Shown in pieces: positions 8,109-63,019 of a stretch of DNA of 64,000 bases. Every line of letters starts with the position of its first letter. The stretch's first letter is position 1. The notes beneath the pieces are model-generated. The model ran no database searches, was not told where the DNA came from, and worked only from the letters and a program-made list of their open reading frames with translations. The DNA is from Paratrimastix pyriformis. Its lineage: Eukaryota > Preaxostyla > Paratrimastigidae. The stretch lies in assembly GCA_027972325.1 (NCBI GenBank), contig JAPMOS010000002.1, positions 1,090,001-1,154,000 on the forward strand. The letters run 5' to 3'. Both the position numbers and the translations under genes were made by a program.

Positions 8109-9102
8109 ATGCATTTTTTCGGCAAGGCAAAGAAGGTCGACGCTCCTACTGCCCATGAAAGTATCCAGAAATTGCGCGAAGCCCAGGAAGCTCTCGAGAA
8201 GGTTTTATCATTTGCCACAGCAGCTAGGTACTTACCCACCTCTGCGGATTATTCTAGCGTCAAAACTTTCTGGAAAAGAAAGCTGCTCTGGAGCAGGACA
8301 ACGCCCGGAAGCTGATTGCTCAGAAGAATCGTCGGGGTGCTCTCATGGCTCTGAAACGTAAGAAGGTTGACTCATATTACCCTACACGGATGTGTTTAAA
8401 ACATTTTGACAGATTTACGAGGTGCAAATCGAGAAGCTCAACAACTCTTGTCTCACTCTGGAACATCAACGTTTCGCTCTTGAGAACGCCAGCCTGAACA
8501 ATGAAACCCTGAGGGGTCTGCCTTTCTTTTAACTGATGTGTTTACACCTTTCTTGGGCCACCATACTAGCGATCAAGGGCGGTGCGGACGCAATGAAATC
8601 TATTAATCAGGGGATGACAATCGAAAAGGTGGACGAGACCATGGAAGATGTTCAGGAGCAGATGCAGATTGGCAGCGAAATCGCAGACGCTATTTCTCAG
8701 CCTCTTGGTATTGGCGCTGAGCTTGACGAGGTCAGTAACTCTTGTTGATCCTGATGCGATCATCCCCACCTCCTCTCCCTCCTCCCTCCCCTCCCAGGAC
8801 GAGCTGAACGCCGAGTTGGATGCCTTGGGGGAGGAAGATCTTCAGGCGCAACTGGCTGTTCCAGCCGGGGTTCCCCAGGCTGTCCCTGGCCAGGCTGTTG
8901 CCGCCCCCGCTGTGGCCACTGCCACGGCAACACTCCCTGCCCTTCCTGTTCCCCCAACGGGTCGGTACAATCCCGTGGTAGCTGTGGCCCCTCATTTCTT
9001 TCGTGTGGACCTTTTGTCAATGCAGAGGCTCCACGGGCTCGTGCCGCTCCCTCGCGGGAGGAGGAGGAACTTCGCAGCCTCGAGGCTGCCCTGGGGATGT
9101 GA
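8109..9102 (+). CDS. CHMP4: CHMP4/Snf7/Vps32 ESCRT-III subunit
   Basis: Complete ESCRT-III core subunit, which polymerises on membranes for multivesicular-body sorting, membrane repair and cytokinesis. Six exons: 8109-8201, 8258-8365, 8413-8515, 8570-8730, 8798-8960 and 9026-9102. They sum to 705 bases, giving 234 residues, the usual CHMP4 length. Signature stretches are ESIQKLREAQEALEKRQNF, KAALEQDNARKLIAQKNRRG, ALMALKRKK, IKGGADAMKSINQGMTIEKV and DELNAELDALGEEDLQ. The C-terminal helix EEELRSLEAALGM matches the Snf7-type helix that binds the MIT domain of Vps4. The basic N-terminal helix (MHFFGKAKK) suits membrane insertion. Donors are GTTTT, GTTGA, GTCTG, GTCAG and GTCGG, so two of five fit the window's GTCYG rule. 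Spacing to the divergent TRIM-like gene is short. Confidence 0.97.
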
Positions 9103-9289
9103 GTCCGCTCCCGACGCGAACTCTCGGCTCGCTCGCTTTCTCCCCGTTTTTGGGGTTTTGTTCCATCCGTTTGTGGCTCCCTCTTCTTCTCTCCGCCGGA
9201 TCTTCTTTTTCCTTTTTGGGGCAACGGCCTTCAACAGCAGGCCTGTTTCGAAGTCGAGGCACTCACCAGGGATTAACACAGGAGAGGGG

Positions 9290-9343
9290 GAGGGAGGAGG
9301 AGGAGGAGGAGGAGGAGGAGGAGGAGGAGGAGGGGGGGGGGAT
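9290..9343 (+). repeat. GGA triplet repeat running into a G tract
   Basis: About 14 tandem GGA units end in a run of about 9 G, in the spacer between the convergent CHMP4 and EFCAB10-like genes. The plus strand could form quadruplex-like structure. No coding role is evident. Confidence 0.85.
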
Positions 9344-9385
9344 GTGTTTCAAAGGGACTCTAATTGCGACGTCAGGGCGGCCGAT

Positions 9386-9878
9386 CTACGAGGAACGGTG
9401 ACCAGAGGAGGTAAAGAAGCAGGATGCAGACGCAAGGGACACGAAGGTTGTCTTGTCCACAGGGGCGTTGCCCTTTGGGAGTCTGGCGAACTCGGCGCAA
9501 CCAAGAGTTTGAAGTGCTGCATTTCAATGAAGGCCAATTTAAAAAAAACAAACGACCAGACCCCCCTCAAGTTGGGAACGTGTGATTGTCCCCTGTTGCA
9601 GCACATCATACATAGAAAAAATACAGTCGAGATCTTCTGTTGAGAAAAGGGGCTATCAGAAAGGAAATATATGGTAACCATATTGTGCCCATGAGAAACC
9701 AGACGTGCTCGGCTCGCGAGTCGTGGAGGGATCTGAGTTGATCGACCAGAAATGCGTTGGGATCCTCGGGGCGATGGAAAAGAAGGGGGGCTGTGATAAT
9801 TTCAAGAATTTGAGTAATTTTTTTGTCCTTCATATACTGCGCGGCATCTTTCCTCTTTGCGTCGCCGGGGTTTTGCAT
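9386..9878 (-). CDS. EFCAB10: EFCAB10-like RIIa-fold / EF-hand protein
   Basis: Small protein with an N-terminal RIIa-like dimerisation fold (KKITQILEIITAPLLFHRPE) and a degenerate EF-hand-type half (EDLDCIFSMYDVLQQGTITR followed by SQLEGALQTLG). This is the layout of EFCAB10, an axoneme-associated protein of animals and protists. Three exons, 9878-9705, 9652-9562 and 9516-9386, sum to 396 bases and 131 residues, close to the human protein. Both donors are GTCTGG, with introns of 52 and 45 bp. The EF-hand loop lacks the full set of acidic ligands, so calcium binding is doubtful. The start ATG 9878 lies 75 bases from the stop of EIPR1 upstream. The assignment rests on both halves matching in order. 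Confidence 0.85.
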
Positions 9879-9952
9879 AACGTTCGGTATTGCGTGGACC
9901 ACCCGTGCATCATCCCCTGTTGCGCAGGCAAAAAAAAAAGCGACGGCAGAAA

Positions 9953-11686
9953 TTACAACAAAATAGAATATTGCACGTTCCGGCTGACACGCTGAATTAC
10001 AAGTCGTCCATCATGCGATACTGCGCAGGAGAGGGGGAAAATGAGGAGAAACCGGAGAGCGCGGATACAGACCCGAAGCGATACACCACGGATCCATCTC
10101 GTTGGTTCCCCAACAGCAGCTATGAACAGAGTCTTCGTGATCACGGTACGCCTCGACGCAGGCACCGGCGGCCCTGCAATGAAGAAAATGGAAAACAAGC
10201 TCGACTCAAGGGCAACGATCAGACGTGGGCGTGTCGAGGATCAAGTCGGTTCTCCAGAGCCGCACGGTGGCGTCGGTGGATGCGCTCACGAGGAGTTCGT
10301 CATGGTAAGTGTTGAAAGACAGCGTCTCCACCCTTAGTTCGTAAAAGTCACAGGAGTGTCGTCGGCTGCTTCATATCAGACCAGTGCATATGCGCGTCGG
10401 GCACACAGGCAAGCTCCTCCCCGTTTTGACGGACATCCCAAAGCTTGATGGTTCCGTCTGTGCAACCTGTGGCCAGGCGGTACTGCGGGCATCGCCACAG
10501 AGGGTCGGCAGCAGTCAGATGCTCAGCAATCGGATCGGGGCACAGACCTGTGTGGTGGGCGCAAAGTCGAGGGCCATGATGGGGGCGTAATGCGCCCCGG
10601 GGACATGCAGGCCCTCGCTGCGAACCAGCAAGGGAGGATTCGTGTGAGAAAGCAGCAAAGGTGATCCGGGGGCAAGCGAAGCCACCAACCGGCCCGCCTC
10701 CCATCTCCTCCCAGCCCGCCGCAGACTTGTTGGTCCGCATGTCGACCACGACGAGGTCGCCACCCTTGGCGACAGCCACCAGGTGGGGGTGCAACGGGTC
10801 CCAGGCCCCTGAGGTTGAACGGGGAGGAGGAAGATTTATCGGGCGGTCACCTCCAACAAACAGACCGGCCATGGTGAAGGCGCCCGTCGTGCAGGCATAC
10901 GGGCTCCCTTGGGCCTGACGAGCATCCGAGATCCGCGCGAGAAACCCCGAGGTGACGATGGGCGGGAAGAGGGCGGGCCGGGTGGCGGACCACGAAACGT
11001 GTCGTCCCCTGCGGAGCCGAGTAGACCTGAAGCCCGCATTCACTAATGACCCCGAGTTGAAGGGGCGCCCCGCGGACGCTACCCAGCTGGGGCTGGACGA
11101 TCACCCTGCGCATACATAGCCACGGTCAGCAGAGCCGGCGGCGTGGGGGGCGAGTGACCTGGAGATCTCCCGTCGCCCTTCGAATGTGTACCGGAGTTGG
11201 AGGGGGACGCCCAATTGCTGGCCCCCATCAATGGAGGGCATGGCCCAGCACTGGGTAACATAGCGGCCGTCACCTAGCGAGAGATCGTGGTGAGAACGGC
11301 TCCCGTGCAGAAAGTCAAACCTGTATGACAGCAGGTAAAAAAGAGGGTAGGATCACTGGGGTGTGGTGTGAGAGTCCAAACTTCGCCCTGCGGGGATGAT
11401 GGATGGGTGAAAGACAGCCAGAAAATGAGGTCCAACCTTGTGGATCGGATCATCTTTGGGGAACGAAAATAGTGCCTTCCTGGTGACCTCACCCCGCTCC
11501 CCGTCAAAATTCACAAGGTGGATCTGCAGGAGAGGAGCCAGTCGAGAGAATGCATCAGCATCAAGAACAGACCTCATTTTCCTCGCGCAAACTGCAAGAA
11601 GCCACCAAAAACTGATTCGTATCGGACCCACAGACGGAACCTACCTGACGACAGGGAAGCTTGAGGCCGTAGATGCTGCCCGACAT
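9953..11686 (-). CDS. EIPR1: EIPR1 (EARP/GARP-interacting WD40 protein, TSSC1)
   Basis: WD40 protein that partners EARP and GARP tethers in endosome recycling and dense-core-vesicle sorting. The N-terminus MSGSIYGL matches the conserved IYGLEF opening of EIPR1. Recognisable blades are GAWDPLHPHLVAVAKGGDLV, YRLATGCTDGTIKLWDVRQN, DELLVSASTDATVRLWRTD and the closing SHDGRLVIQRVSRNVQYSIL, which matches the family's invariant C-terminus. At least seven exons; donors read from the sequence include GTCTGA twice, GTCTGT twice and others of the same type. Stop TAA at 9955-9953. The start ATG (11686-11684) shares CATG with the proposed start of the divergent gene. Middle exons between 10600 and 11560 are only partly placed. 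Confidence 0.9.
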
Positions 11687-14172: not shown

Positions 14173-14371
14173 TCAAAGCGCCATTTTCCTCGCGTATTTT
14201 GCTAAGGGGCATTATGTTCTGGTCGGTCCTAAGACATTAGACCGTAAAAATAGACCCGAACAAGTCTTTGTTGCGCTCGGGTCGTCACGCTGCTCCAGTC
14301 ACACTCTCCCTCAACGGCCGGATGGGCCAGCCTAACCCTGTCTTGATCTACCCGAGCAGAATTCTATTACA
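14173..14371. promoter_or_regulatory. Spacer upstream of the prominin-like gene
   Basis: About 200 bases between two plus-strand genes. It is less GC-rich than the flanking exons and presumably holds the promoter and 5' UTR of the prominin-like gene. No motif is distinctive enough to name. Confidence 0.4.
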
Positions 14372-16029: not shown

Positions 16030-16070
<41 letters not shown>

Positions 16071-28719: not shown

Positions 28720-31004
28720 TTATTCGTTGGCCGCGGGGGACTGCTGCTGCTGCATGGCGGCCAGCTCCTCGGCGGTGGGCTCCCGCTCGAGCAGCGTGGG
28801 CACCGCGGGGGGGGCGGGGGCAGCCGGCGCCGCAGCGGCAGCGGCGGGCCCGGTGGCGGTGGCGGTGGCGGTGGCGCCATCCTCTGGGCGAGGGGCGAGG
28901 GGCGAGGGCGAGGGGGGGGGGGGGGGGGGGGGGGGGGGAGGGGGCGAGGCGGGTCAGAATCCGATCGGCGGTGCTGCGGGGCGGGCACGGACCGGGCTGG
29001 CGCACCTCGACGGTGAGGTCGAGGTCCTGGCCGGTGATCTCGCGGTACAGCCGGAAGACGTCGTCGGTGGTGCTCTCGAAGTGGCTCGACGAGTCGTAGC
29101 TCTTCGAGATGAACACCTTGCTGGCCGTCCCGGGCTCGTTGGGCACGAACATGGGCGTCACGTAGACGAACCTGCGACGCCACCGCCGCCATCACCGACA
29201 AACCGATCAGCCAACCGAATCCGAGGGAGGGGGAGGGGGAGAGGGGGGACGGAGGGAAGAAGGCGCGAGCGCGCGGGTTGGGGAGGGGGCGGACCGCTCC
29301 TCGATGGGCTCCAGGAGGCGGAGGGCCGAGTCGAGCTCGTGGGTGGGGTCGCTGGTCTCGGCGGTGGTGCTGACGAAGGCCAGGTACTTGCCCTTGGGGC
29401 ACACCGCGTGGACAGAGCTCAGGACGCTCACGTAGACATCTGCGCAGCGCCCAAGGGCGGGGCAGAGAACGGGATCGATCAGGGCGCCGACCCAGGTCGG
29501 GGGGGTGGGAGCCGCGGTGTGGCTGGGTGGACGCCCAGACCGTTCTGACGGGGCGGGTTGCACTGGTTCTGGGGGATGATCACCATGGCACTGTCGGCAT
29601 CCTTCGTGTTCGGGATCGAGTCTGCGGCAAGCCAACCGGGACCGCGTGAGAAAACCCAAGCAGGCCGCCAGAGAAACGACACCGGACGGGACATGGACGG
29701 GACAGACGGTTGAGGACGCAGATGCAGCGGACGCAGTTGCCCACCTGGTGGACGCGGCTGGGGAAGTAGCTCGGGTCGGCCAGGATGAACTTGCACCGGG
29801 CCACCTCGCCCTCGGAGCGCACACCCACCGCCTGTCCCTGCTCGTTGTACATGATCTCCTCGATGGGCTTCCGGAGCATATACGTGCCGCCGTAGATGGC
29901 CGACAGCCTGCGCCGAGAAAGAAAGAAAGAAAGAGAGAGAAAAAGAACAAAACATGAGATTCAAAAAGAACTTTCAAGAAAAGGAAAAGTGCAGCCCCGG
30001 ACCGGGGCCCAAAGGGCCCAGACAAGAGACACCCAAAATAGTGCAGGACGGACCGGGCAAAGCCCTGGGGAAGCTCACCCAGGCCGTACTTGGGGTAGAT
30101 GAAGCTGCTGTCCCCGTGGGCGGCCAGGGACTCGCAGTAGAGCTTGATGCGGTCCAGGGTCGGCTTGGCAGGCTGGTCCAGGTAGGCGTCGTTGTAGTAC
30201 AGGGCCATGGCGTGGCCAATGAAGTCGCAGGACTCTGCCTCAAGGCCGAACTTCCTGAAGACGGCCCGCATGGTATCCCGCTCAACAACCAGGCCTAATG
30301 AATTGTAGATAATTAGGGTAAATTTTCTCATCAGAGGGAAAGATCTACCTTCGTGAGTCTTGGGGACAGCCGGGTCGTAGTTGATAATGAAAAGAAGGAG
30401 CTTGCGGAGCTTGTTCTTTTCAAAGAAGCCCATGAGGGGGGTGGAAAGAGTCTCACCCTCAGTGGCGGGAACCTATTTTTAAGATGATAGACGACAGTTC
30501 AACAGCACACCGAAAACGATGAAGATGTCAAGGGAACAACAACTCAGAGGACCTTCTGGATCTTGTTCTTCTTGACGACAAAGGCGCCCTTGCACTTTTG
30601 GAATTCGAGGTAACGAGTAACCTTGGTGTGAACCAGGGTCTTCACCAGGTTGCCAGTACTCAACAGGAACTTGGGCACAAGATCCACATTATACTCGCGA
30701 GATGCGCCCAGCGTCGCAGGGGGAGCGGCGCCACTAGGGATGTATTTTTTATCGCGACTCAGCACAACTCTGTTTCGACAGACTTTCGGAATTTTCCAAA
30801 GAGTTGCTGAAGGTTCACGGAGGCGCACTCGCCACCGTAGTAGTCATTGCGGTCCTACCAAAAAAAGGCCGAAATCAAATAGCCGAAGATAGCAGCTCAT
30901 CAGACCATGTGCAGAACCTTGTAACCATGGGAACTCAGCAAGCCGCTGAGAATGCACTCAGTGAGACCAGTGCCGAGAATAACAGCGTCGTAGTCTTCCT
31001 GCAT
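28720..31004 (-). CDS. GDI1: Rab GDP-dissociation inhibitor
   Basis: Cytosolic chaperone that extracts prenylated GDP-Rabs from membranes. The start ATG 31004 opens [20 protein letters not shown], the GDI/REP FAD-like motif. Then come [20 protein letters not shown] (across an intron with donor GTCTG), [146 protein letters not shown] and [20 protein letters not shown]. The Rab-binding and effector-loop regions are present. The C-terminus is longer than in typical GDIs, with an Ala/Pro segment ending [10 protein letters not shown], and lies after an intron with a C-run (about 28914-28938). Stop TAA 28722-28720. Confidence 0.95.
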
Positions 31005-31437
31005 TGCACTGCACGGGCAATGAAATCATCACAAGCCCGAGGTCGTAATGGAGGCAGACCCTGCGTGACCGGGGCGATTTGATCTGTGTCCGGCAAAGAA
31101 CACCCAAAGAGGAGGAAAAGGTCAAGAATGTGTTCGAGGCAAAAAAAGAAAGAGAAGGAAAAAAGAGGAAGAGAAGAGGAAAAGGAAGAAAAAGATACCG
31201 AAACAGATGAGCAGGATTGCGGATGAGAGAATTGGACTCGAAAAAAAGCGGCGGAGACAGGGATATTCGAGAGAAAACGAGACTTAAAGGGCTCGTATGT
31301 TAGGAAAAATGGCACAGGCGAATAACTCGAGAACCGAGGCCGAGGAGCCGGTCACCGGGAGGGAGGGGGAGGATGGAATAAAAAAATCAGGTCGCGCCGA
31401 GGGCGGGGGCTCGGGGCGGCCATGGGAGGGGAGGTGG
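31005..31437. other. Spacer between GDI start and Ca2+-ATPase stop
   Basis: About 430 bases, purine-rich on the plus strand from about 31085 to 31260, holding the GDI promoter and 5' UTR and the 3' UTR of the ATPase gene. I see no exon. Confidence 0.5.
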
Positions 31438-34400
31438 CTACTGTTGGCCGCTCTGGTAGCGGGCGCCCTCGGGGGCGGACGGGGCCAGGTCGGGTGCGGA
31501 AAGCAGGCCCTGCCGTTGGACTGGATGGGAGGGCAGCAGGGCAGGGCAGCAGGACAGGCCGAGAAGAAGGGACCGGCGTGAGCACGGACGGAGGAGGGAG
31601 CGGGCACGGAGGAGGGAGCGGGCACGGAGGAGGGAGCGGGCACGGAGGAGGGAGCGGGCACGGAGGAGGGAGCGGGCACGGAGGAGGGAGCGGGCACGGA
31701 GGAGGGAGCGGGCACGGAGGAGGGAGCGGGCACGGAGGAGGGAGGGCAGGCAGAGCGGACCGGTCTCGTCGGAGGGCTGGGGCATGGCCGCCATCTCGAT
31801 GGGGGCCGCCGGGGCGGGGGCGGCGGGGGCGATGCGGCCGGGCAGGAGGGCGGTCTTCTCGGTGAGGCCCGAGGGGGCCGAGCCCTTGGCGGCCCGCTCC
31901 TGGGAGACCTTGAGCCGCTTCTGGCGGGCCTCCTCACGCTGCTTGGACTTGCGTGTCTGCAGCTCGCGGCGCCGGTCGAGATCGGCCTGGGAGATCTTGT
32001 GGTTCCAGTGGGCCGGGACCGGGATGAAGGTGTTCAGGAAGCCTGGCCGCGGACGGGTGGGCGGGGTGGGGGTGGGGAAAGGGTCAGTCTTGCGACCGAA
32101 AGGTTGGCACCCCCCGGGAAGGCCCACACTGGCGGGGCGGGTGGGGAGCACGGACCGAGGGGGATGGAGCAGGCGCCCACCAGGATGCAGACGCACCACT
32201 CGAGGAAGGTCAGCCCGGTGCACTCCATGAACTCGCCGGCCACCTCGACGATGAACAGCTGCCCCAGCAGGGTGATGCCCCAGATGGCCAGGAAGAACCA
32301 GTTGTCGGTGATGTTCTCGAAGATCTTCCGCTCTGCCCCCCACAGCAAGAGGAGGAACAGAGATGGAGATGGAGATGGAGATGGAGGGAGATGGAGATGA
32401 AATAATGAGCGTGCCGCCGTGGAGTGTCTGTGGGTTGGTGGCGGCGAGCGGCTGCGGACCGTTGTTGCACTTGCGGGCGTTGATCTCGTTGAAGAGCTGG
32501 CACATGACGAAGGTGTTGAAGACCATGGTGTACGTGTGCCGGGTGGTCGTCTGGTGGAAGATGCTCGGGCCCGCGTACAGCATAACGAAGCAGGCCACCA
32601 GCTGGGGGGGGGGGGGGGGGGGGGGGGGGGTACAAAGGAATGAGGGCGAGGCAAAGGAGGCGTCGACCAGAATGGAGGGAGCAGGAGGGCCGAGGTGCGG
32701 GCAGGGGGAGGGGAGGAGGGGGCGCCGACCTGGAGGGTGCCGTGGAAGATGATGTTGCGGAGCATGATGGGCGAGAGGAGCGACTCGAACCGGCCGTAGG
32801 GGGCCCGGTTGAGGAGGCTCGGGTGGGGCGGCTCGGTGGCCAGAGCCAGGGCGGCCAGGGTGTCCATGATCAGGTTCACCCAGAGCATCTGGACGGCCGT
32901 GATGGGGGTCGATTCGCCCGTCAGGGCCCCGATCAGGGCCACCACCAGGGCCACCACGTTGGCCGTCAGCTGGAACTGCAGGAACTTGCGGATGTTGTCG
33001 TAGACGGAGCGGCCCCACATGACGGCCTTGACGATGCTGCTGAAGTTGTCGTCGAGGATGACAATGTCGGCCGCCTCCTTGGCCACCTCGGTGCCCGTGA
33101 TGCCCATGGCCAGCCCGACGTCGGCCTCGTTTAGGGCCGCCGCGTCGTTGGTGCCGTCGCCCGTCACGGCCACCACCTCGTCCATGGCCTTCAGCCTACA
33201 GCGGCCCCCAGCCCAACGCCCGGCTGTGAGCCACGCCGCGCGGCACGGAGGGACGGCCCGAGGGCGGGGAGAGGGGGTGGGCGGACAGACCGCGAGACGA
33301 GCTCGTACTTGTCGGTGGGCGAGCTGCGGGCCATGACCTGCAGCTTGGGGAGGAGCTCGGTCATCTGGCGCTGGGGGTCCATATCGCGGAACTCCTTGCC
33401 CGTGATGGCCGTGCCGTTGGTCAGGATGCCGCACTCGCGGGCGATGGCGCAGGCCGTGGCGATGGTGTCGCCGGTGACCATCCGGACCGTGATGCCCGCC
33501 AGCTGGCACTGGTGCACGGCCTCCTTGACCTCCTTGCGCAGGGGGTCCTGCACGGGGGGGGCGCAATGGACGGTGAGCGAAGTCCATGCGGGAGGGGAGG
33601 AGGGGATGGCAGCAGGGCGGGGGGGCGGGGCGGGGCGGGGCGGGGCGGGGCGGGGCGGGGCGGGGCGGGGCGGGGCGGGGCGGGGCGGGGCGGGGCGGGG
33701 CGGGGCGGGGCGGGGCGGGGCGGGGCGGGGCGGGGCGGGGCGGGCGGGGCGGGCGGACCTTGATGCCGACCAGGGCCAGGAAGATGAGGTCACTATCGGG
33801 GGCCTCGGTCGTGTTGGGGTCGAAGGTGTCCACGTCCTTGTAGCAGAGGGCCAGGGTGCGCAGCTGCTGGGTGCCCATGTGCTCGCAGATGCCCAGGATG
33901 CGCTGGCGGGCCTCGGGGGTCATGGCCACGATGGAGCCTTCCGAGTCGATCATCTCCGTGCACCGCTCCAAGAGGATATCAGGCTGCCCCGACCCGACCC
34001 GACCCGACCCGACCCGACCCGACCCAAGGGGTGAAGATGAGGCGAGGGATGGAGGGCCGGAGGGCTGGAGGGCGGGGAATCTCTGGCGAGACGGACGGCG
34101 CCCTTGGTGTGGACCCGGAAGCCGGCCGAGTCGCGCCGCTGGACGACGGTAGTCATCCGCTTGCGGGACGAGTTGAAGGCGTACAGCCCGACGACGGCGC
34201 TCTTGAACATGTTGCGCATCTCGAGGTAGTTGACGTCCCAGTTGTCGCACATGACCAGCAGGGCGCCCTCGGTCTTGTTGCCGACGAACTCGCGCAGCCC
34301 GGTGGCGTTGTTGTTGATCAGGGTGGCCGTGCTGTTGATCGAGATGCCCTCCGAGAGCAGGTACAGGTAGGCCGGGGTCAGGGTCGTCGCCGCGGGGATC

Positions 34401-36064
34401 TCCTCATAGAGCCGATCGCAGAGGAAGGCCTGGACGACGGTCATGCGGTTCTCGGTGAGGGTGCCCGTCTTGTCGGAGCAGATGGTGGTCGCGCCGCCCA
34501 TGGTCTCGCAGGCCGCCAGGTGGCGCACCAGGTTCTGGTCCTTCATCATGAGCCGCATCGAGTAGGCCAGCGAGATGGTCACCGAGAGCGGCAGGCCCTG
34601 CCCTCCGTCGTCAGCCCCCCCACCGAGCGACAGGGCAAGCGACAGGTCAGTGCCAGCCAGAGAGAGCGCCAACCCGACGCGCAGATGGTGCGAATACCCC
34701 TCCCCTCCCCTCCCCCTCTCCCCTCTCCCCGGCGTGGGGCAGCCGGACGGACCTCGGGGACGGCAATGACGATGATGGCCACGCCGATGATGAAGAAGCT
34801 GACCAGCTTCTCGATGTGCAGGCCCCACTCCCATGAGGTGCCCGTGACGACCAGCGTCACGATGAACCGGATGACCAGACCCACGAAGGTCAGGCAGGCG
34901 AAGACCAGCCCCATCAGCCCGATCTCTGCAGGGAAGGAGGGGGTGGGACCGTCAGCACTCTGCCCTTGCGCCCCCCTCCCACCTTCCTTCCCGGGGTGCG
35001 GGAGGCACACTGACTCTTGGAGAGGCCATCGAGGGACTCCTGCAGAGGGGTCTCGCTGTCGTCGGCGTCGGAGAGCAGGGCCATGGTGGCGCCCCACTCA
35101 GTGTTGATGCCGACCCCGGTGACCAGCATCGTCCCCACCCCGTCGCTGACAAAGGTCCCCGAGAGCAGGAAGGGATCGCGCTCGTTCTTCTTGATCATGT
35201 TGGTCTCGCCCGTCATGGCCGACTCGTTGATCTCCAGGTCTGGCGGAGGGGGGGGGGGGGTGAGCGGCCCAGGCAGAGGATGCTGCAGACTGTGGCCGTT
35301 GATGAGAAGCCCATCGGCGGGGATGCAATCACCCGGGGAGAGTTCGACGACATCGCCCACAAGAAGATCGAAGATCGAGACGAGAACGCTCTCCACACCC
35401 GCACGGGTGCACTACAGGGAGGGGAGAACACAAGCTGAGGAACAGAGAACGTCGACAGGCCCAACCTTGATTTGAATGTCTTTCTTCGTTTGGTTGAGCT
35501 TTCGGAACTGGCGGTCCTTCGACCAATCGTTGGCAGCGGTCACACCGGCCACGATAAGAACAGTCACAATGATGGCAAGTCCCTCGACCCATTCTGCGGA
35601 GAAAGGTGGGCGAGATTCACCACACACACACAAAAAAGAAACACGAACCGGGAAGCGTGGCATTGGGGTCCTGGAAGAAAATGCCTACGAGAAAAAAAAA
35701 CAGCGTTATATAACCCGTGGAGCAAAAGGAAATGCATACCCAAAACAATAGAAATAAGAGCAGCACCCTGAAGAATCAGGAGCGTGGTGTCCTTCAGTGC
35801 GTCCAACATGAGCCTGAAGAAACTTTCTGGGGGAGGTTCAGGGATCTTATTCACGCCAAAGGTGTTGAAACGCTCCGCAGCATTTGCAATATCTTGAGCA
35901 GAAAGACCACGAGCAGGATCGGTTTGCAGAGCCGTGGCGATGGCAGGAACGCCACCCAGGCTGGCAACTGCTTCATGGTCCTTGGATGCGGCCAAATCAG
36001 CAAGATTTTTGGCACTCAAACCAAATCGCCCCGTTGGACAAGGCGTTATAATTGTTTTGCTCAT
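31438..36064 (-). CDS. P2B-type (plasma-membrane-like) Ca2+-transporting ATPase
   Basis: Calcium pump that exports or sequesters Ca2+. The start [17 protein letters not shown] leads to the N-terminal P2B signature ([11 protein letters not shown] ... [20 protein letters not shown] ... [19 protein letters not shown]). Then: actuator loop ([30 protein letters not shown]), M4 with [11 protein letters not shown], phosphorylation motif [19 protein letters not shown], nucleotide domain ([30 protein letters not shown]), hinge [21 protein letters not shown]5-M6 ([19 protein letters not shown] ... [20 protein letters not shown]) and later helices. The basic C-terminal region ([20 protein letters not shown]) is where P2B pumps carry calmodulin-type autoinhibition; a binding site is only inferred. 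The last exon is 31520-31438, after an intron full of an 18-bp repeat. Many introns, mostly GTCCG donors. Confidence 0.93.
31587..31745 (-). repeat. 18-bp minisatellite in last Ca2+-ATPase intron
   Basis: About eight to nine copies of an 18-bp unit (plus strand GGGCACGGAGGAGGGAGC) inside the intron 31760-31521. That intron begins GTCCG just upstream on the minus strand and ends CATCCAG. Splicing it out joins DET to [20 protein letters not shown] in frame. Read through, it would encode a six-residue RARSLL repeat, so retention would also be open. Confidence 0.85.
33622..33758 (-). repeat. CCCCG pentanucleotide expansion after a GTCCG donor
   Basis: More than 20 tandem CGGGG units (CCCCG on the sense strand) within the Ca2+-ATPase intron following FLALVGIK. 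The sense strand reads GTCCGCCCGCCCCGCCCCG, passing from splice donor into repeat with no gap. The G-rich template strand should be strongly quadruplex-prone. Confidence 0.92.
33990..34024 (-). repeat. GACCC pentanucleotide repeat in Ca2+-ATPase intron
   Basis: About seven tandem GACCC units (GGGTC on the sense strand) near the 3' end of the intron just before the exon encoding [11 protein letters not shown] second pentanucleotide array in the same gene. Confidence 0.85.
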
Positions 36065-36203
36065 CTGGGAGCCTCCAAGCTCAGAAGGCGTTATTCCAAA
36101 GTTGCCGGGGTGAGAAAGACTGACGTGTGAGTCGGCGGAATGGACGATCGACGCTGTCCATGAACGCCAAAAAGAAAGGAAAAAATGCGCGAAAATTTAC
36201 ATA

Positions 36204-38546
36204 CTATTGGTCCACCTCTTCCACGTGATCGTAATCCAGTGGGGGCCGCCGCATATCCGCAGTGGCGGAATCCTCCTCGCCAAGCGTCGTATCCATGGTT
36301 CGGTTGGCAGGCGCCTATTTGGTGTAAGGTAAGGAGTAAGACCGTGGTTGCATGGAAAACATAGGGGTGCGTGAAAGGGGACAGACATCCGCAGAAGTGG
36401 CGGTTGGCCGGGGGTGCCTGATGGCTGCGGCGGCCCGGACACCCGAGGTGGCCGAGGTGGCCGAGGAGGTGCTTGCTCGAACATCTACCCCCCCGTCGTC
36501 GAGGGCATCCAGGGGGGCCGTCTCCAGAGGCCCCAGGTCGTCCCACTCCTCGCCCTCGTCCTCGTCGGCCTCCTCGGCATGGTCGGCCAGCACGTGTCGG
36601 GCGGTCCCCGTCCGCCGGCCCTGGCCGCGAGCGCCCGTGGCCGTGGTGGCGTCCGAGGGGGACGTGGCCGTGAGGGGCGAGAAGAGTGCGCTGCCGGGGG
36701 TGGTGGGCTGCGTGGCCGTGAGGCTGGTCCCCGTGGGGGTGAGCGGGGTCCCCACCTCGGCCCCCGAGAGGGGCGTGCCCGGGGTGCCCGGGGTGCCCGG
36801 GGTCCCCAGGAGCCCAGTCCCCAGCAAGGTGGCCGTGGGGGGATGCTGGCTGGGCTCTGGTGGCTCGTCCCGGGGCGTGTGGAGGTTGGCCCCGGCCCCG
36901 GCTGCCGGAGACCCGGAGGGGAGGGCTATGCTCGGCGGCGGCACAGCGGCGGGTGGGACGGGCGCTGCACGACCGGCAGACGGCGCGGGGGCGGAGCCGG
37001 CAGACTGGGCCCGGCTGGTCAGGGCCCGCATCCGAGCAACGGGAAGCCCTTCCACTGGCGCCGCGAACCACCAGTAGTGAAATGAAGGAGCGGATGGGCC
37101 GAAACAAGAGAACCAAATGATGGTCGGCAGCCGGGGAGATGGAGAGATGGAGAGATGGAGGGATGGAGGGATGGAGGGATGGAGGGGGGGGGGGGGGGGG
37201 GCAGACAATCGTCTTCGGCTGCGGCTGCGGCGGAGCGTGCCCTACTGGCCAAGAGACTCGTCCCCAAGGGGCGCGAGGAGGGCGCGTTGTCGTCAAGACC
37301 GCTCTCGGTACCACGTAGCGGGGCCCCCGCGGCTGAGGCCCCAGGAAAGGGGGGATGTAGAAACAACGTGAGATGGCGATCCAGAAAGCAGCAGCAGGCA
37401 GCAACCCAGCACTCGTTCAGTTTCGGCTGTTGCTCATGTTCGGATCTTGCCCTCTGCCCCGCCCGGGTGCATTGTCCATCGCCCGCCAGGGCAGGGTGAT
37501 CAAAACCCCCACCCTTCATCTTCCGGTTTGCGCGAGCAGACCGGGCTGGGGAGAGGCGCCTGAAGGTTGGGGCAGCATGTCGCGGGGAGTTGTCTGCGGA
37601 GAGGCCGTCGGCTCGGAGTTGTGCTGCTCGCCGTCGGAGCTGCCGCAACGAGCGAGCCCATCACAGAAAAAGAGGCCCGCAGATGAGACGATGAGAAGGA
37701 CGTAAAGCAAGCGGGCGATTGGCTCGCCCTTTGGAGGGAGATTTTGCGGCCGGACGGACCCGTCTGCGGGCCCAAGAGAAGATGGGGCCCCATCGGGAAG
37801 GGCGGCCGCGTCTGCGCTGGCCCCACCCGTGAGCGCCCCCAGGGACGGGCCTCGCCTGGAACCCCCGGCAGCTCGGAGGACGGGCGAGGGGCGTGGACTG
37901 GTGGGTGAGGCGCGAGGCAACGCCAGTATGTCTGCAGCAGCAGCCCCCGACCCGCTCGGCGGGGGCAAACCCGGAGCCGAGGAAACCGGGGGCGAGCGGC
38001 CGGCGGGTGGCGAGGGTCGCGGGGCAGCCGGAGGGTGGGGCTCGCTCATCCAATGTTCGATCAGATAGGCTATGATCGGCCTCCGCTCTTTGGCATCGCC
38101 AGCGTTCTCGTCCTCCTCATCGTCGTCGAGGCGGGGGAGCCGCAGCCTGGTACGGAGTTCCTCGCGGGTCAAACGGGGAAGTGCCTTGAGTGACAACGGG
38201 AAGGTGATGATGGTTGAAACTCCTCACAAACCTGAAGGTGGGCCTCCGGTTCGAAAACGGTGAGTGAATTTTTGAGCCCGCAACATTCCAGAAGATCGCG
38301 GATCATCAGGAGACTCACTAGCCCTGGTAGGACAATGTTTGGCCCCGAAACATAAAAGAAGAGCAGACCTTCGGAACTCTTGAGATAGCTTTCGAGGCGA
38401 TCATTTTTAAATTGGAGCTCAAGATGGGACTCCTCCAGGCAGCAAAAAACAGCAGCACGAAGCTTAGCGCGAAATTTGTCCAAAACTCCCTTTTCTTCCA
38501 GGGTCTTTGTTACAGCTTTGCGGATCTCAAAGACATCATCCGCCAT
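36204..38546 (-). CDS. FOP/CEP43-like centrosomal LisH protein
   Basis: Probable basal-body/centriolar-satellite protein of the FOP family. The start MADDVFEIRKAVTKTLEEKG continues VLDKFRAKLRAAVFCCLEES, the conserved N-terminal TOF/FOP helix. After an intron (donor GTCTG) comes the LisH motif LLMIRDLLECCGLKNSLTVF followed by EPEAH. A further exon reads LPRLTREELRTRLRLPRLDD and a helix IIAYLIEHWMSEP. The rest is Pro/Ala/Thr-rich and disordered, with an acidic patch (EEADEDEGEEWDDLGPLE), ending in a small exon that encodes DYDHVEEVDQ, stop TAG 36206-36204. One intron (about 37204-37110) opens GTCTG and runs into C. Together with the EFCAB10-like gene it argues for a flagellated cell. FOR20 is an alternative but is much shorter. 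Confidence 0.75.
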
Positions 38547-56880: not shown

Positions 56881-57037
56881 GAGTCGCTCTTCCGGACCCG
56901 AAACAGAGGGGGCGCCACAAAACCTCGGAACCCAGGTGGGGGGGAAGGGGACGAAGAAGCGGAGCCGGAGGTCCCCTTCTGTCCTCGTGGGCCGCGCCAC
57001 GCCACCATCATCGGCCGGCAAGGGCCCGTTCAGTCAG

Positions 57038-57593
57038 CTAATGGGATGCGGCAGGATCTGCCACGAGGGCCGGGGGAACCTCTTCCTCCGCGAGTGGGGC
57101 AGCAACATCCTTTTTCCACAGCGAGCTCCGCATTTCGCGAATCCAGTCAATGTCCTGAGACATGCGCTCGCGGTAGTCTACATCAAAATGTTGAAGCCTT
57201 CGACAAAAGAGGGACGGACAAACCAGGGATTGTGACATGCATCAGTTGCCGTTTTCGGGCCAGGGGAGCGGTGGCGGATTTCAGTGCGGACATGATGGAG
57301 CGGGTCTCGGCAGCTTGTTCGCGGGTCGCGTGTCGGAGGCCCATCTCGAATTGTTGGCAGAACCACTACAGATCGATAAAACGAGGAACTGCAAGGGACA
57401 CTCGACAGACCTCAATTTCTTCATCCAGCGTCCAGACAATACGATCAGCGCCCTCGGGGAGACGATTCTCTGTCCGGGAGGCTTTCTGGCGTTCACGGCG
57501 CTCCTTGTTCTTTTGCTTCTTTTTTAATTGCGCGGCATCAGGGACGGGGACAGGGACAGGGACAGGGACAGGGGCGGGGGCAGCGGCGTCCAT
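57038..57593 (-). CDS. C8orf33/UPF0488-like protein
   Basis: Small conserved protein of unknown function. Three exons (57593-57411, 57365-57224, 57177-57038) sum to 465 bases and 154 residues. The N-terminus has a Pro-Val repeat (from a GGGACA hexamer), then a basic helix (LKKKQKNKERRERQKASR). The family core reads TLDEEIEWFCQQFEMGLRHA, KSATAPLARKRQLMH and, across a 46-bp intron, DYRERMSQDIDWIREM. This matches the UPF0488 order in which an APL.RKRQ.M block is followed by DYR. Donors GTCTG and GTTTG. The start is 58 bases from the divergent thioesterase start. The basic helix suggests a nucleolar or RNA role; unproven. Confidence 0.72.
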
Positions 57594-57651
57594 CTCTCGG
57601 AATTTGCGTGATCACACCCGGTTCAACAAGCAAAGCTCGCTCGCTGCTGCA
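57594..57651. promoter_or_regulatory. 58-bp divergent promoter (C8orf33-like / hotdog)
   Basis: The shortest clear spacer between divergent start codons in the window (57593 and 57652). Whatever core elements are used must lie within it or inside the two first exons. Confidence 0.5.
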
Positions 57652-58246
57652 ATGCGCCCTGAAGAGTTTCCACACGTTGTTGCTTCTCATATGGTCAAAT
57701 CCATCGAGTCTGTCTGCCGTTACACCAATTGCTTCACATCTTTGCAGTTTGAATCATCACCAAACCCTTTTCGCGGGGCGTATGAGCGAATGGATGGTTG
57801 AAACTGCTTTCATGACGGCCCGCAATGCACTCGCCTGCCATCCCGGAAACCTCGTTTGCAAACGTGTTCACAAGCTGGACTTCCGCAAGCCCGTTCCTGC
57901 CGGGGAAACGTTTGTTCTTGAGGGTCGCGTGGCGCACGTTGGCAGAACAAGCATCAGCGTGTACATTGAGGGATACATTCTCGTTCCCCAGTCTGCTCCG
58001 GTCGTCACTGCCGATGGGTTCGTTTCTTTTGTGCACGTCACTGAAGGCACCGATAACATCCGGCCGCTTCCTCATGGCGTGAATGCTGAGGCTCCACAGG
58101 ATCCAAAGGTCTTTACTTTACTCTCGTTGTCATTGCTTGACATAATTCTCTTCTCATTCCAGGCCATTGAACTGTGGCAGTATATTGAACAAGAGCGTGG
58201 TGGCGAGCGTCCTCAACAACCCGCTGCTCCCTCAGTTGCCCGGTAA
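57652..58246 (+). CDS. Hotdog-fold acyl-CoA thioesterase-like protein
   Basis: Acyl-CoA hydrolase of the hotdog superfamily. Three exons (57652-57707, 57748-58108, 58163-58246) sum to 501 bases and 166 residues. The N-terminus MRPEEFPHVVASHMVKSI joins to DLNHHQTLFAGRMSEWMVET, which carries the N...(G)xLFAG motif of the hotdog central helix where the catalytic Asp/Asn region lies. It continues VHKLDFRKPVPAGETFVLEG, VAHVGRTSISVYIEGYI and FVSFVHVTEG, the beta-sheet half. The C-terminal helix (AIELWQYIEQERGGERPQQP) is short. Donors GTCTG and GTCTT. One hotdog domain per chain implies at least a dimer. No organelle signal is obvious. Substrate length not predictable. Confidence 0.85.
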
Positions 58247-58319
58247 TTTTCTCGGTAACCTGTTTTTGTTATCGACCAATTTTTTCCCAATTTCCAATTT
58301 GAAATGATGCGTGCGTTCG

Positions 58320-59573
58320 ATGTTTGAAGCCGCCGGAATGACACTGGACACGGGGCAGGACCCTCTAACACCCTTGAATCACATGAGGTTATGCTCCTTT
58401 CTCGGGACCCACTTGCCATTTCAGACATACAACGGCACAATGTTCGACTACCTCCAGACAACTGAGGGCAATAATGAGTTATTTCTCTTTTTCTCTCGAT
58501 TTTCTGTCAATTCGCACCTTTCGCAAAGCCGGTTTGTGTCGTTCATGCGAGAGTGGAGCGATCTATACGACCATCGAATTGTTTCAATTTTTTGTTTATT
58601 TGGTCCGCCTTTGGGAGCATCTCGCAACCCTAAGACTCGATGATGTTAGTGCTCCCAGACCGATTTTTGATGTCCTTTTCCGAGTTCAGCATCATCGTTT
58701 ATTTCTATACTGCATTTGAATGCCAGCAGATCCACACTTTTTTGTCTGTTCCCTTCTCTTCGCCCGCTCCTCACAGCCTCTCCGGCAGTTCTCACCATGG
58801 AACCCACCTTTTCCGGATCTTTTCGGAGCGCTCTTTGCCATACCCGCCACTCTATGGGCCCCCAGTCCAATACCCATCGCAGCCGCCTCCCCCTCAACCA
58901 CCTCCCTCGCCCAGCGTTCGCGAGCCCACAGTGAGCAGCAATCTATCCACACTCACCACGTCACACTCTGTCTCCCTGTTGGAAATCAAGCGCTTATTGG
59001 CTCTGTTCGACCTCGACTTCCTCGATGTCGACGCGGCCCTCTCCCGTCAGCTCGAAGCGCTTTCCCTGCCCCCGCCCTCCTCCTCTATTCTCCCTGCACT
59101 GGCCACCGGCCGCAGCGGGACCGAGACACAGGGCGACTCGGCCCGTGCGCTCACCACTCACGGCAGTGTTGGACCTGACATGGCGACCAGCATTCCAAGT
59201 CCCTCTGTCCGCCCTCCCCCCACGGTCGCCAACCCGGAGGACCCGGCGCAGGTCCGGCTGAATCGATGCCAGTTCGAGGCGCTCCTCGTGGCCGTGCTGA
59301 GCTCCTTCTACCCTGCGCCCACAGTGGCTCCGCCCATCCCGTTCACACCCGCCCCATCGGCCCCGCCGACCCCTCCCGACGCCATCCCTCTTTCGATCCA
59401 ACCGGCGACCCCCGCACCCCCCAACTGCCCGTCACCACCCCCCGGCAACAGTCCGATACGACCCCTTGCTGTGGAAAGGGCCCACGGAAGAGCCTTCGCT
59501 ACCAGCAGGCCGGATCCGCGCCACCCCACAAATGTTGCACGCTGTTGTGACAATATTGCTGAAAATCTATGAT
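58320..59573 (+). CDS. Unrecognised Pro-rich protein
   Basis: I do not recognise this gene and its exon joins are uncertain. A first segment from ATG 58320 reads MFEAAGMTLDTGQDPLTPLN and LCSFLGTHLPFQTYNGTMFD. A second likely exon near 58600-58680 reads LREHLATLRLDDVSAPRPI-like sequence, followed by Pro-rich linkers. The best protein-like block is LLEIKRLLALFDLDFLDVDA then LSRQLEALSLPPPSS, and later LNRCQFEALLVAVLSSFYPA. The open frame ends at 59572. An alternative frame for the last 120 bases (LHAVVTILLKIYDL) is also plausible. It could be two genes. Confidence 0.35.
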
Positions 59574-59701
59574 CTCTGTGAGATCGGACACTCGCGGGAT
59601 GGCGGACGAGAAGAGAGAGAAAAAAAAATCGGTTCGCCAAATGGAGAAGAAAGAAATAATGTTGAGAAGAAGAAAAGGCAAAGGTCTCGAAAAGGGCACG
59701 A

Positions 59702-60107
59702 TTAAACAGAGGAAGCAGCCTCAGATTTGGCAGCAGCCTCTGCAGCCGCCAATTCTTGTGCAATAGCGGCCTTTTCCTTTGCTTCTTCAGGATCACCACG
59801 GGCGCCCTACAGGAAATTTGTGAATGATGACAGTGGAAATGGAAGGAAAAGACCTTCAAGAAGCAAACCACAATAAAAACCAGAAGAACAACGCAAATAG
59901 TGCCCAAAGGAACCCCAACAGCAAGAGCAATAGTCAGCCCCAACGGAGCTGAAGAAAAGAGGTCCGATCAAGAGAAACGGTGTATCAATACGGACTTGGA
60001 TTGTATGTTCTCTCAGCGGTCGGTTCTTCCGCCTGAACTTGGGAGAACAGGAGGGTAAAGAGGCAAAGAACACCGAGCAGTTTGAGCATTTCTCCCTGGG
60101 GTTGCAT
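59702..60107 (-). CDS. Small single-pass membrane protein with signal peptide
   Basis: Not recognised, but the structure is clear. Three exons (60107-59996, 59948-59854, 59806-59702) sum to 312 bases and 103 residues. The signal peptide MLKLLGVLCLFTLLFSQVQA (preceded by MQPQGE) is followed by a short extracellular part. One strong membrane helix reads LTIALAVGVPLGTICVVLLV then FIVVCFLK. A short cytosolic tail is charged and Ala-rich (EEAKEKAAIAQELAAAEAAA). Donors GTCCG and GTCTT; intron lengths 47 bp. Type I topology is inferred. It is too short to be a receptor in the usual sense; a subunit or adaptor is possible. Confidence 0.7.
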
Positions 60108-60659
60108 GACTCTGCCCCACCAATTTCACTTGCGCCAGAGTGAAGAGGATCATTCGAAATTCCCGTGCTGAACAACCTCACACTGTGATTGGGCGGGAAT
60201 CCATTCGTGTTCGTAGTCGCAGGACAGTTTACAGCTGACTCATTACCTATTTCTCTTGTTCTCCTTGCGCGCTTCTTCTTCGGTGCCTGGGCAGGGTGCG
60301 ACCATAAACCCCTTCCGTTGAGCGAGGGGGCTGCCGGGAGTTGACGCCGGTTAACTTCTCGCTGCTTCTCTTTTGGGCAGTAAGTGGAAGTGCTCTAACA
60401 CAGCTGACCCACAGGAATATATTTTTCTCGAGGAGTCTGAGAGATGCCTGTGGCTATAGAACAGTGCAGATATGTTGGGTGGGAGAGATTCTTCTCTTCA
60501 TCCGAGCCCTGAAGTGTGTGAAGATCGTGGGCCCCTGGCGGGAGAGATGGAACGAAAGCTGAATGTACAGCAGACCGGGCCGACGGTGCAGCTTTCCTGT
60601 TCCAAGTTGCTCACTCGGTTGGCTTAAAAGAGCCGTGGCTGCGTCGAGGAGGGCGAGCG
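60108..60659. other. Spacer, no clear gene
   Basis: About 550 bases between the small membrane protein start and the next plus-strand frame. It likely contains two promoters. A short frame from 60341 with a hydrophobic start (VNFSLLLFWAVSGSALTQ) could be a signal-peptide exon but has no partner I can join. Confidence 0.45.
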
Positions 60660-61007
60660 ATGATTCTCGTAAAGGGGGTTCTGGACGCGTTTTTGGAGAA
60701 TCACGCAACAGGAGAGGTACTTGGGGAAAACTTGTGGTGGGCAGATGGGTCGTCGGATCCTGCGGAGCTGGCGCACCGACGGAGACTACTTGCCAAAAAG
60801 TGGATGTCTTTTGGCAAGATGGGCAGAGCGATTTTGCCTGATGTGGATTCCGACAAGTCAGATAGGTTCCTCAAAGGGAAACAAATTGCGAACGTGAAGC
60901 AAAAAACGAATGGGCTGAGGGAATACAACCAACCATTTTGGGCTGAAGCGCGAACTGCTGTGTTGGAGGATCTTAAATATTGTTGTAAGACTGTATTTCC
61001 GGACTGA
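60660..61007 (+). CDS. Hypothetical 115-residue protein
   Basis: A single open frame from ATG 60660 to TGA 61007, not recognised. It is helical and charged: MILVKGVLDAFLENHATGEV, RRRLLAKKWMSFGKMGRAIL, SDRFLKGKQIANVKQKTNGL and WAEARTAVLEDLKYCCKTVF. The amino-acid mix looks like a real protein, and it ends 73 bases before the RPA12 start. It may have an upstream exon, since the sequence before its ATG is also partly open. Confidence 0.45.
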   Translation: MILVKGVLDAFLENHATGEVLGENLWWADGSSDPAELAHRRRLLAKKWMSFGKMGRAILPDVDSDKSDRFLKGKQIANVKQKTNGLREYNQPFWAEARTAVLEDLKYCCKTVFPD

Positions 61008-61080
61008 AGAAAGGCACAAGAATCCATCCCCAAGGAGAAACCTCGATCGGAGGCCGGAAAGAGCAGAAAACCCAGAGGTG

Positions 61081-61544
61081 ATGACGACCGTCTTTTGTTC
61101 TCGGTGTGGTTCCCTTTTGGACTTTCATCCCACCCTTGTCCACTGTCCTCGTTGCGAGTATGAATGCGGTTATGAGGGTTTGTCCCGTTTTGGGAATGTT
61201 TCCTTTTTCTCAAACGCCCAGGATAGAATTTCACTTTACCGAGGACGTGAAACGAATCCAATTTATCCAGGCCGGGCCAAAACCTGCTGTCAAAGCTGCC
61301 TCTAAACAAAAGGCAATCGTCTGCGGCCGACAGCCTTCCCCACCGATCGTATTCCCTCTCTTTAGATTACCCACACTTGCCCTCAGTGCAAGTATGACCA
61401 GTGTAGCTTCACAACGGCACAGTTGCGTAGTGCTGATGAGGGTTCCACTGTTTTCTACGAATGTCTTCGTTGCGGTTCGTCCGTCCCCCTTTTTATTCGC
61501 TCATTTTCGCCTGGATAGGACACAAATTCTCCGAGAACAACTGA
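61081..61544 (+). CDS. POLR1H: RPA12/POLR1H, RNA polymerase I zinc-ribbon subunit
   Basis: Small subunit of RNA polymerase I that acts like TFIIS in RNA cleavage. Four exons (61081-61181, 61222-61318, 61366-61474, 61519-61544) sum to 333 bases and 110 residues, near the family's usual 115-125. The N-terminal zinc ribbon is MTTVFCSRCGSLLDFHPT with CPRCEYECGYEG. The C-terminal ribbon is ITHTCPQCKYDQCSFTTAQL then RSADEGSTVFYECLRCGHKF. The RSADEG loop carries the acidic residues used in catalysis in TFIIS and RPA12. Donors GTCCC, GTCTG and GTTCG. The C-terminal ribbon is diagnostic; length and the N-ribbon exclude TFIIS and RPB9. Confidence 0.92.
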
Positions 61545-61913
61545 CACCATCCGATTCTCTTTGTTTCCCTATCATTCCTCCTGCCCCCTGGTGCGTCTGC
61601 ACCCCCGCCTCACGCATAAGCATCTCCGCGTTTTTGCGTGCGCTCTTTTCCTACGCTCCTTCGCACGCGCACATTATTTCAGTGCGGGGAACCGGTTGGC
61701 TCCCATTCTCCGCCTCTTCCGAACGAGTTAAAATGATCGGTCGTCACTCTTCTTCCAAAGAGGTGTCAGATGCGGAGGTGCAGGGATGATCTTTTGCGAA
61801 GGGATCGATATCTTTCTCGGAGGTCACAGAGCTGGAGACCTCACTCTTTGGTTTGAGAACAGTTGGGTGTCCCAGGGAGTGATTCTCTTTTTCTCTTTGA
61901 CCTTTTCCCTGTG
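61545..61913. other. Spacer between RPA12 and PINX1
   Basis: About 370 bases, relatively AT-rich. A short frame from about 61733 (MIGRHSSSKEVSDAEVQG) might be a 5' exon of the next gene, but PINX1 has a good start of its own at 61914. No other feature is visible. Confidence 0.5.
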
Positions 61914-63019
61914 ATGGAAAACAATCTTCGAGCGAATCCTCTGCTTGAAACCCAGGGACAGGCTTGGTCGAAGGGTAAGGGTCTTGGATTTCGAATGCTC
62001 CAAAAAATGGGATGGAAAGGTCTGCCCATCACCTCCACAGCCAAGGTTGAAGTTTCCGCTAGAGGGGACTGGCCTCGGAAAGACTCACACTGGTATGACC
62101 ACACATATTTTCGTGCCGGTGAAGCAAGATGCTTTGGGGTTGGGCGCCGCCCAATCCACAACCAACTGGCTGACCCCAGGTCGTCCCTCCCTGTGAAAAA
62201 AGGGCACTCTCTGATTTAGTTGAAATAGCTGCCCAGTTTTCTTCTATTTTGGCCAGTCTTTCATCAAAGTTCGCTGATAATGCCACTCCTCCCCCGCCCG
62301 CTTCGCCTGCCGTGCCCTCCGATCCTGATCATCCCGAGGAGCTCGCATCACCACCTCCATGCTCGGCATCACCCTCCCCGATCCCACCAACGGGATCTCC
62401 CGCTCCGGGAAAGAAAGTGATGGCGCGCATTCGGTCTGCCATTTTTCCCGATCACGTTTGATCACTGTCGGTCCTTAGGCATCACCGTATCGTTAAGGCC
62501 ATGGACACGACTCGTTTCGACGCGAACGATATGGCACATATTTTCGTGACAAACACTCTCCCCACCGATGATGATCGCTTCACCCCTTCCCCTTCCCCTT
62601 CCCCTTCACCGCCCCCGCAACCGGAGCCAGAGGTCGTTGTTCCTTCTCCAGTGGAAGGTCCAGAGGCCTCGATGCCCCCGGTTGGCGAGCAGGCCCCTCG
62701 CAAATCCAAGAAGAAGCGTTCCGCTCCACCCCCTGACGATGACTCGACGGCCCCTTCTCCCAGCCCCAGCCCCAGCCCCAGCCCCAGCCCCAGCCCCAGC
62801 CCCAGCCCCAGCCCCAGCCCCAGCCCGTCGTCTGATACTCCTGTGCATACGCACCGACGCGCTCGACACCAGAAGAGCGAGGAGGAACCAACGCCAGCTG
62901 AGGCAGACCCAGTGGCCGACTGTCAGGTGGTATCTTCAGACCAGCCCGCAACGGAAATCTCTGGAGAAGCCACAAAGAAGAAGAAGAAGCATCACAAGAA
63001 GGATCCCGAACCAGAATAA
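61914..63019 (+). CDS. PINX1: PINX1/PXR1 G-patch nucleolar protein
   Basis: Ribosome-biogenesis and telomerase-regulating G-patch protein that activates the DEAH helicase Prp43/DHX15. Four exons (61914-62019, 62063-62179, 62220-62433, 62479-63019) sum to 978 bases and 325 residues, close to human PINX1 at 328. The N-terminal G-patch reads QAWSKGKGLGFRMLQKMGWK and, across an intron, EGTGLGKTHTGMTTHIFVPV with KQDALGLGAA and NNW-like STTNWLTP. The middle conserved block RIRHHRIVKAMDTTRFDAND then MAHIFVTN matches the yeast PXR1 segment before its Lys-rich tail. The C-terminus is basic (KKKKKHHKKD). Donors GTCTG, GTCGT, GTCTG. A Ser-Pro repeat lies in exon 4. Confidence 0.9.
62755..62830 (+). repeat. 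In-frame CCCAGC hexanucleotide repeat (Ser-Pro)
   Basis: About 12 tandem CCCAGC units in the last PINX1 exon encode alternating Ser-Pro. A shorter CCTTCC-type run near 62585-62610 encodes a few more Ser-Pro pairs. SP dipeptides are potential CDK/MAPK-type phosphosites. Confidence 0.9.

Follow-up and report, generated by a model that had tools for sequence, protein, structure and literature searches.

The window analysed here, a stretch of 64,000 nucleotides from the genome of the free-living protist Paratrimastix pyriformis (C112:1090001-1154000 of the searched assembly, which holds 56,060,509 bases in 495 contigs), carries a Rab GDI gene, a CHMP4/SNF7 gene and a plasma-membrane-type Ca-ATPase (PMCA) gene, and the present analysis concerns the 5' ends, or donors, of their introns. 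It is confirmed that P. pyriformis introns mostly begin with GTC(C/T)G and not with the usual GT(A/G)AG. The donors were located by a method free of any donor motif, a protein-to-DNA spliced aligner in which the donor was left free and only the AG acceptor was fixed. The exact set comprised the Rab GDI gene (transcript-derived protein, 8 introns) and a P-type ATPase gene on contig C212 (P. pyriformis database protein, 23 introns).

The introns of the Rab GDI gene span 28884-30783 on the minus strand. The first match to this gene was 100% over a 277-residue query, to the protein derived from transcript contig GAFH01001617 (EukProt P0001). Trimastix pyriformis is the former name of P. pyriformis. 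The accession GAFH00000000 is the 454 transcriptome of T. pyriformis (PMC3596361). Spliced alignment placed 461 of the 462 residues of P0001, with identity at all 454 unsplit codons and with eight introns, all GT-AG when AG was fixed. The score was 2287 whether both ends were free, AG was fixed or GT-AG was fixed; with both ends free, several boundaries had equally scoring alternatives a few bases away, which is expected. In gene order, the introns begin with GTCTGT (30734..30783), GTCCTC (30473..30552), GTAGAT (30295..30348), GTCCGT (29908..30053), GTCTGT (29622..29707), GTCTGG (29440..29540), GTCCGC (29172..29294) and GTCCGT (28884..28992), each placed by the exact alignment to P0001.

The P-type ATPase of contig C212 (P0121) aligned with 1222 of 1226 unsplit codons identical, and 23/23 introns start with GT[C/T]. 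P0121 presumably stems from the published gene set, which used RNA-seq hints, and so is more indirect evidence than a transcript would be. Misannotation could hide in three long introns of the gene, of 296, 531 and 435 bases. In the CHMP4 gene, on the plus strand of the window, spliced alignment to an SNF7 homolog sequence gave four introns, all starting with GT[C/T]: GTTTTA (8202..8257), GTTGAC (8366..8412), GTCTGC (8516..8569) and GTCAGT (8731..8797).

The Ca-ATPase gene occupies 31284-36400 on the minus strand. No own-species transcript or database protein was found for it in the search, the best match being the C212 paralog at 56%, and it was aligned to a profile of 40 homologs. The donor-free run gave 12 introns, of which nine start with GT; the other three begin with CCTTTT, GGTTCG and CAGTGT, the last two being 1-2 bases off GTTCG and GTCAG. 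When GT-AG was fixed, 11 introns were obtained, and ten of these were pooled, one being left out for unstable placement (GTAGGC, 35688). The pooled introns, all on the minus strand, begin with GTTGGG (35412..35465), GTCTGC (35240..35290), GTCAGT (34926..35014; from the GT-AG run, the donor-free run being 2 bases off), GTCCGT (34598..34752), GTCCGT (33984..34096), GTCCGC (33548..33758), GTCTGT (33196..33290), GTCGGC (32602..32729), GTCCGC (32333..32459) and GTCCGT (32043..32155).

In the exact set, the donor is GT in 31/31 introns, +3 is C or T in 30/31 (binomial against one half, 1.5e-8) and +5 is G in 25/31; all 14 homolog-supported introns of the window (4 CHMP4, 10 Ca-ATPase) also have a pyrimidine at +3. 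The pool of these 45 donors consists of GTCTG (12), GTCCG (11), GTCAG (4), GTCGG (4), GTTCG (3), GTTTG (2) and nine different donors seen once each. The +3 position is C in 36, T in 8, A in 1 and G in none (purine in 1/45), +4 is C in 16, T in 16, G in 9 and A in 4, and G stands at +5 in 37 donors and at -1 in 34; +6 is T in 20 and C in 18. As +4 is only weakly constrained, it is +3 and +5 that carry the donor signal. A sequence-only reading of the window had proposed GTCCG and GTCTG as the starts of most introns, with GTCGG, GTTTG, GTTCG and GTCAG as a minority, +3 being mostly C and +5 mostly G, and had set the first CHMP4 donor at 8202. The pool bears this out: the first two are its commonest forms and also the top two classes among 130 introns predicted in the window by the gene finder described below, the four minor forms are all present, and the alignment to SNF7 returns the same CHMP4 donor.

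The Rfam model of the U1 small nuclear RNA (snRNA), RF00003, matched eight loci on eight contigs over positions 1-166 of 166, with E values of 3.7e-13 to 2.0e-10. All eight genes begin with AUACAGACCUUG and not with the canonical AUACUUACCUG, so that nucleotides 5-6 are changed from UU to AG. The longer 5' end, ATACAGACCTTG, is shared by all eight, where the model consensus has AUACUUACCUGG, and its reverse complement is CAAG/GTCTGTAT. The P. pyriformis U1 resembles the canonical RNA of RF00003 in being full-length, with its stem-loops, a CAUAAU...UUUGGU Sm-type stretch and a final stem-loop, and its 5' end starts with AUAC and retains ACCU; it differs in having AG for UU at nucleotides 5-6 and UUG for UGG after ACC.

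When the U1 5' end is aligned with the donor, G6 lies opposite +3, A5 opposite +4 and C4 opposite +5. The +3 spectrum (C, then U, with one A and no G) is the pairing spectrum of G, which takes C as a Watson-Crick and U as a wobble partner, whereas U at U1 position 6 would favour A and G. Duplex energies agree, AG at positions 5-6 being better than UU for 43 of the 45 donors and worse for 2, with mean values of −7.86 (AG), −3.99 (UU) and −9.83 (GG) kcal mol−1. The U1 5' end is thus complementary to the donors of its own species. The sequence-only reading had offered an altered U1 5' end as the first of two alternatives and had proposed to check whether that end pairs with GUCYG; the pairing is found, and the eight U1 genes support this alternative.

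The donors are, with a probability of about 0.93 as judged from gene and donor sequences, ordinary U2-type GT-AG sites with a recoded +3 position, read by a U1 snRNA that was recoded along with it. With GTC(C/T)G donors and all found U1 genes altered at the matching letters, the Paratrimastix lineage appears to have rewritten the splicing code at its first step. In the proposed mechanism, G6 would accept C or U at +3, A5 would face +4 and C4 would still read G at +5, with A7 and C8 still reading GU at +2/+1 and C9, U10 and U11 reading the exon end. The U1 genes would be expressed with the altered 5' end and would define donors in vivo. The Paratrimastix lineage may have made this shift from a donor resembling the GTATG of its oxymonad relative Streblomastix, a parsimonious path being a change of U to A at U1 position 5, which betters pairing to U at +4, and then of U to G at position 6, with +3 going from A to U or C. 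Few known RNA stretches are as conserved as the U1 5' end, and its change together with the donors would be nature's counterpart of the classic compensatory experiments. P. pyriformis would thereby make testable how a genome-wide recognition code changes without breaking thousands of introns.

Several observations weigh against this reading. One transcript-supported donor is GTAGAT (intron 3 of Rab GDI, the only +3 purine of the pool), and the Ca-ATPase junction left out of the pool has the donor GTAGGC, contrary to the pattern. AG ranks second of the 16 dinucleotides at U1 positions 5-6, with GG first, since C and U are equally frequent at +4; U at +4, preferred by A5, occurs in 16/45 donors. 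The +3 spectrum and this ranking indicate that the donors explain U1 position 6 well and position 5 less. The duplex energies take no account of modified bases. The U1 loci score 50.8-60.2 bits, under the Rfam gathering score of 69.5, and they are therefore called a divergent U1 homologue and not a curated-threshold member. Moreover, 41 of 992 first-look U1 candidates were scored, and a divergent second U1 or further copies could be missed.

In the loci examined, U2, U5 and U6 are canonical at the U2 branch-site region (8 loci, two further U2 matches lying outside these), U5 loop 1 (7 loci) and U6 ACAGAGA (4 loci), the U6 and U5 alignments covering two loci each. Both aligned U6 loci and, by sequence, 4/4 loci have the ordinary AACGAUACAGAGAAG, and a U6 change matching +3/+4 was rejected on this ground. 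U1 nucleotides 1-7 (AUACAGA) are identical to the U6 ACAGA-box stretch, with which the consensus U1 shares only AUAC and the A at position 7. UCUGUAU at +2 to +8 could therefore pair with either RNA, and the identity is relevant to the passage of donors from U1 to U6. It stands at even odds that the U1 'anticodon' has been rewritten at two positions occupied by pseudouridines in well-studied U1, as a natural, genome-wide change of the U1/donor code, and that U1 and U6 would read one donor heptamer, (G)UCUGUAU, the donor being handed between two equivalent helices and not between different ones in what may be called a single-code spliceosome. Watson-Crick matches to the heptamer among the 45 donors number 36 at +3, 16 at +4, 37 at +5, 20 at +6, 6 at +7 and 11 at +8, and the low counts at +7 and +8 indicate that its outer part is little used.

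The same identity opens the way to an explanation in which U6 is the driver, the donors having evolved towards complete pairing with the invariant ACAGA box of U6 (G44 opposite +3, A43 opposite +4) and U1 having followed, so that U1 pairing would be secondary for donor choice. The canonical U6 sequence favours it, as does A at U1 position 5, which suits U6 mimicry better than it suits the donors, where G is best; U6, more than U1, has also been argued to select the cleaved donor (PMC11732430). The partial use of the shared heptamer at +7 and +8 speaks against it, and yeasts show +4 changes without a U1 change (Parker et al., PMC10581693). We regard a driving role of U6 as less likely than not.

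It is far less probable that a canonical U1 remained unassembled or unscored and that the eight loci form a U1 family of divergent copies or pseudogenes. The assembly is incomplete, with 495 contigs here against a published 56,627,582 bases in 633 scaffolds (PMC10703272), and the fraction of candidates scored is small, as given above. A pattern with U1 positions 5-6 left open, however, returned the same eight loci and no others, all with AG, and a pattern search of the assembly for the canonical U1 5' end with the loop letters GATCA behind it gave 0 matches. The eight copies keep the same 5' end on eight contigs despite differing flanks. All 27 U1, U2, U5 and U6 loci examined have a CCCATAA element upstream, as a rule preceded by a T run, and U1 and U2 both start after a similar AATTC-like context; the U1 copies thus look like real genes with a correctly placed 5' end. 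As a side reading, CCCATAA may be a common snRNA promoter element, U6 included. A canonical U1 would, in addition, pair badly with GT[C/T]NG donors. The pseudogene explanation was rejected owing to the conserved 5' end amid differing flanks, the shared element and the donor fit.

An origin of the consensus in frame choice or in GC-rich composition is more remote still. The genome is rich in guanine and cytosine (60.94% G+C in the published table, PMC10703272; 0.535-0.763 per 4 kb in the window), and the exon joins of the sequence-only reading were chosen by eye. GC richness would not, however, keep G at +5 and yet leave +3 almost never G. Restriction to GTA/GTG donors lowered the score greatly in 4/4 genes, to 1962 from 2287 in Rab GDI, 1657.7 from 1996.6 in the window Ca-ATPase, 4647 from 5951 in the C212 ATPase and 183 from 281 in CHMP4. 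Restriction to GTC/GTT left the score unchanged in the C212 ATPase and CHMP4 and lowered it slightly in Rab GDI (2274 against 2287), a drop that goes with the single GTA donor of the gene, and in the window Ca-ATPase (1973.9 against 1996.6).

A bulk check was made with a self-trained two-strand gene finder in which only GT and AG were fixed, trained on the window and roughly 190 kb from the contig on which it lies. Six training starts (no seed, GTAAGT, GTGAGT, GTGCGT, GTCTGT and GTCCGT) all converged on C at +3 (0.51-0.59) and G at +5 (0.55-0.64). The unseeded training gave no clear donor logo in its first three rounds; the logo was present after 15 rounds with longer seed open reading frames. 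The unseeded model predicted 350 introns, 165 GTYNG against 48 GTRNG, whereas the same procedure on reversed sequence gave 72 against 63 among 396; the information at +3/+5 was 0.32/0.44 bits in the real and 0.04/0.10 bits in the reversed sequence. Among the 130 introns predicted in the window, GTCCG (46), GTCTG (23) and GTCGG (11) are commonest. The percentages are below those of the exact set because the predictions include false introns. The exact alignment to a transcript-derived protein, the purine-only scores and the reversed-sequence control without a logo led to rejection of the artefact, in keeping with the earlier contention that the donors do not arise from frame choice.

The U12-type donor motif is ATATCC, or RTATCC. 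Assignment of the introns to the minor (U12-type) spliceosome is scarcely credible and was rejected, for although a U12-like snRNA gene is present, it scores 44.9 bits against a cut-off of 53, the pooled donors are unlike the U12-type motif (RTATCC in 0 of 45) and 31/31 exact introns have GT-AG boundaries and the usual pyrimidine-rich ends. No U11 match was obtained in a search of the assembly, though the same search also matched nothing in controls. The U12-like candidate itself (C432:103343-103517, minus strand) is a full-length match to RF00007, has AAUGAGUAAGGAAAAUA and the same upstream CCCATAA element, and suggests a minor spliceosome in P. pyriformis.

Among known systems, the Saccharomycotina show switches between A and U at +4 that track METTL16 and SNRNP27K (Parker et al. 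2023, PMC10581693), and the U1 region interacting with the 5' splice site is 100% conserved in the 236 species of that survey according to a figure legend. P. pyriformis likewise has a lineage-specific change of a donor position neighbouring the U6 ACAGA box, with U6 unchanged; unlike the yeasts, in which the change is at +4 and U1 is constant, it is changed mainly at +3, its U1 is altered, and METTL16-like and SNRNP27-like genes are present. The METTL16-like methyltransferase gene (C332:38300-39900) has the CNPPFF (NPPF) motif and belongs to an excavate; the survey of PMC10581693 found no METTL16 among the excavate species it covered. The SNRNP27-like gene (C9:25700-26100) retains YRQYMNRKG. 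The losses tied to the yeast +4 changes therefore do not explain P. pyriformis, and METTL16 loss as the cause of non-A at +4 was rejected, the METTL16-like NPPF domain being present. By eye, the SNRNP27-like gene itself shows two more introns, which start with GTCTGC and GTCGGG and are outside the pool.

The U1 5' end is also naturally altered in the diplonemid S. specki, where one of two U1 copies has a C run with comparable complementarity to the same donors (PMC12621601); in P. pyriformis, by contrast, all U1 copies found are altered and the donors have changed too. The oxymonad Streblomastix strix, also of the Preaxostyla, shares GT-AG introns and G at +5, but at +3 to +5 its conserved letters are A, U and G (21 introns), i.e. 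GTATG (PMC1501061), where P. pyriformis has GT[C/T]NG. Cyanidioschyzon merolae (PMC11732430) and Amoebophrya (PMC7789003) also depart from the standard U1-donor relation, and no U1 was found there according to these sources, whereas the U1 of P. pyriformis is multicopy and complementary to its donors. No report of an altered U1 with recoded donors, which may exist elsewhere in print, and no paper joining 'Preaxostyla' with 'U1 snRNA' was found in the open-access literature searched. In the available main text of the P. pyriformis genome paper (PMC10703272), 'snRNA' occurs 0 times and 'splice' once.

U1-associated proteins are nearly absent in the metamonads surveyed in PMC6679479. A zf-U1 search of P. 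pyriformis gave a single match, and a split U1-C exon could escape such a search. This match we take to be WBP4/FBP21 and not U1-C.

In practice, gene prediction and spliced alignment built around GTRAGT would give wrong scores on the P. pyriformis genome. In the window, a prominin gene model was predicted by the gene finder, and no prominin homologs were found with the first 580 residues of the model as the query. The start of a phosphomannomutase-like gene lies at 63675-64000 on the plus strand, and the gene runs past the end of the window.

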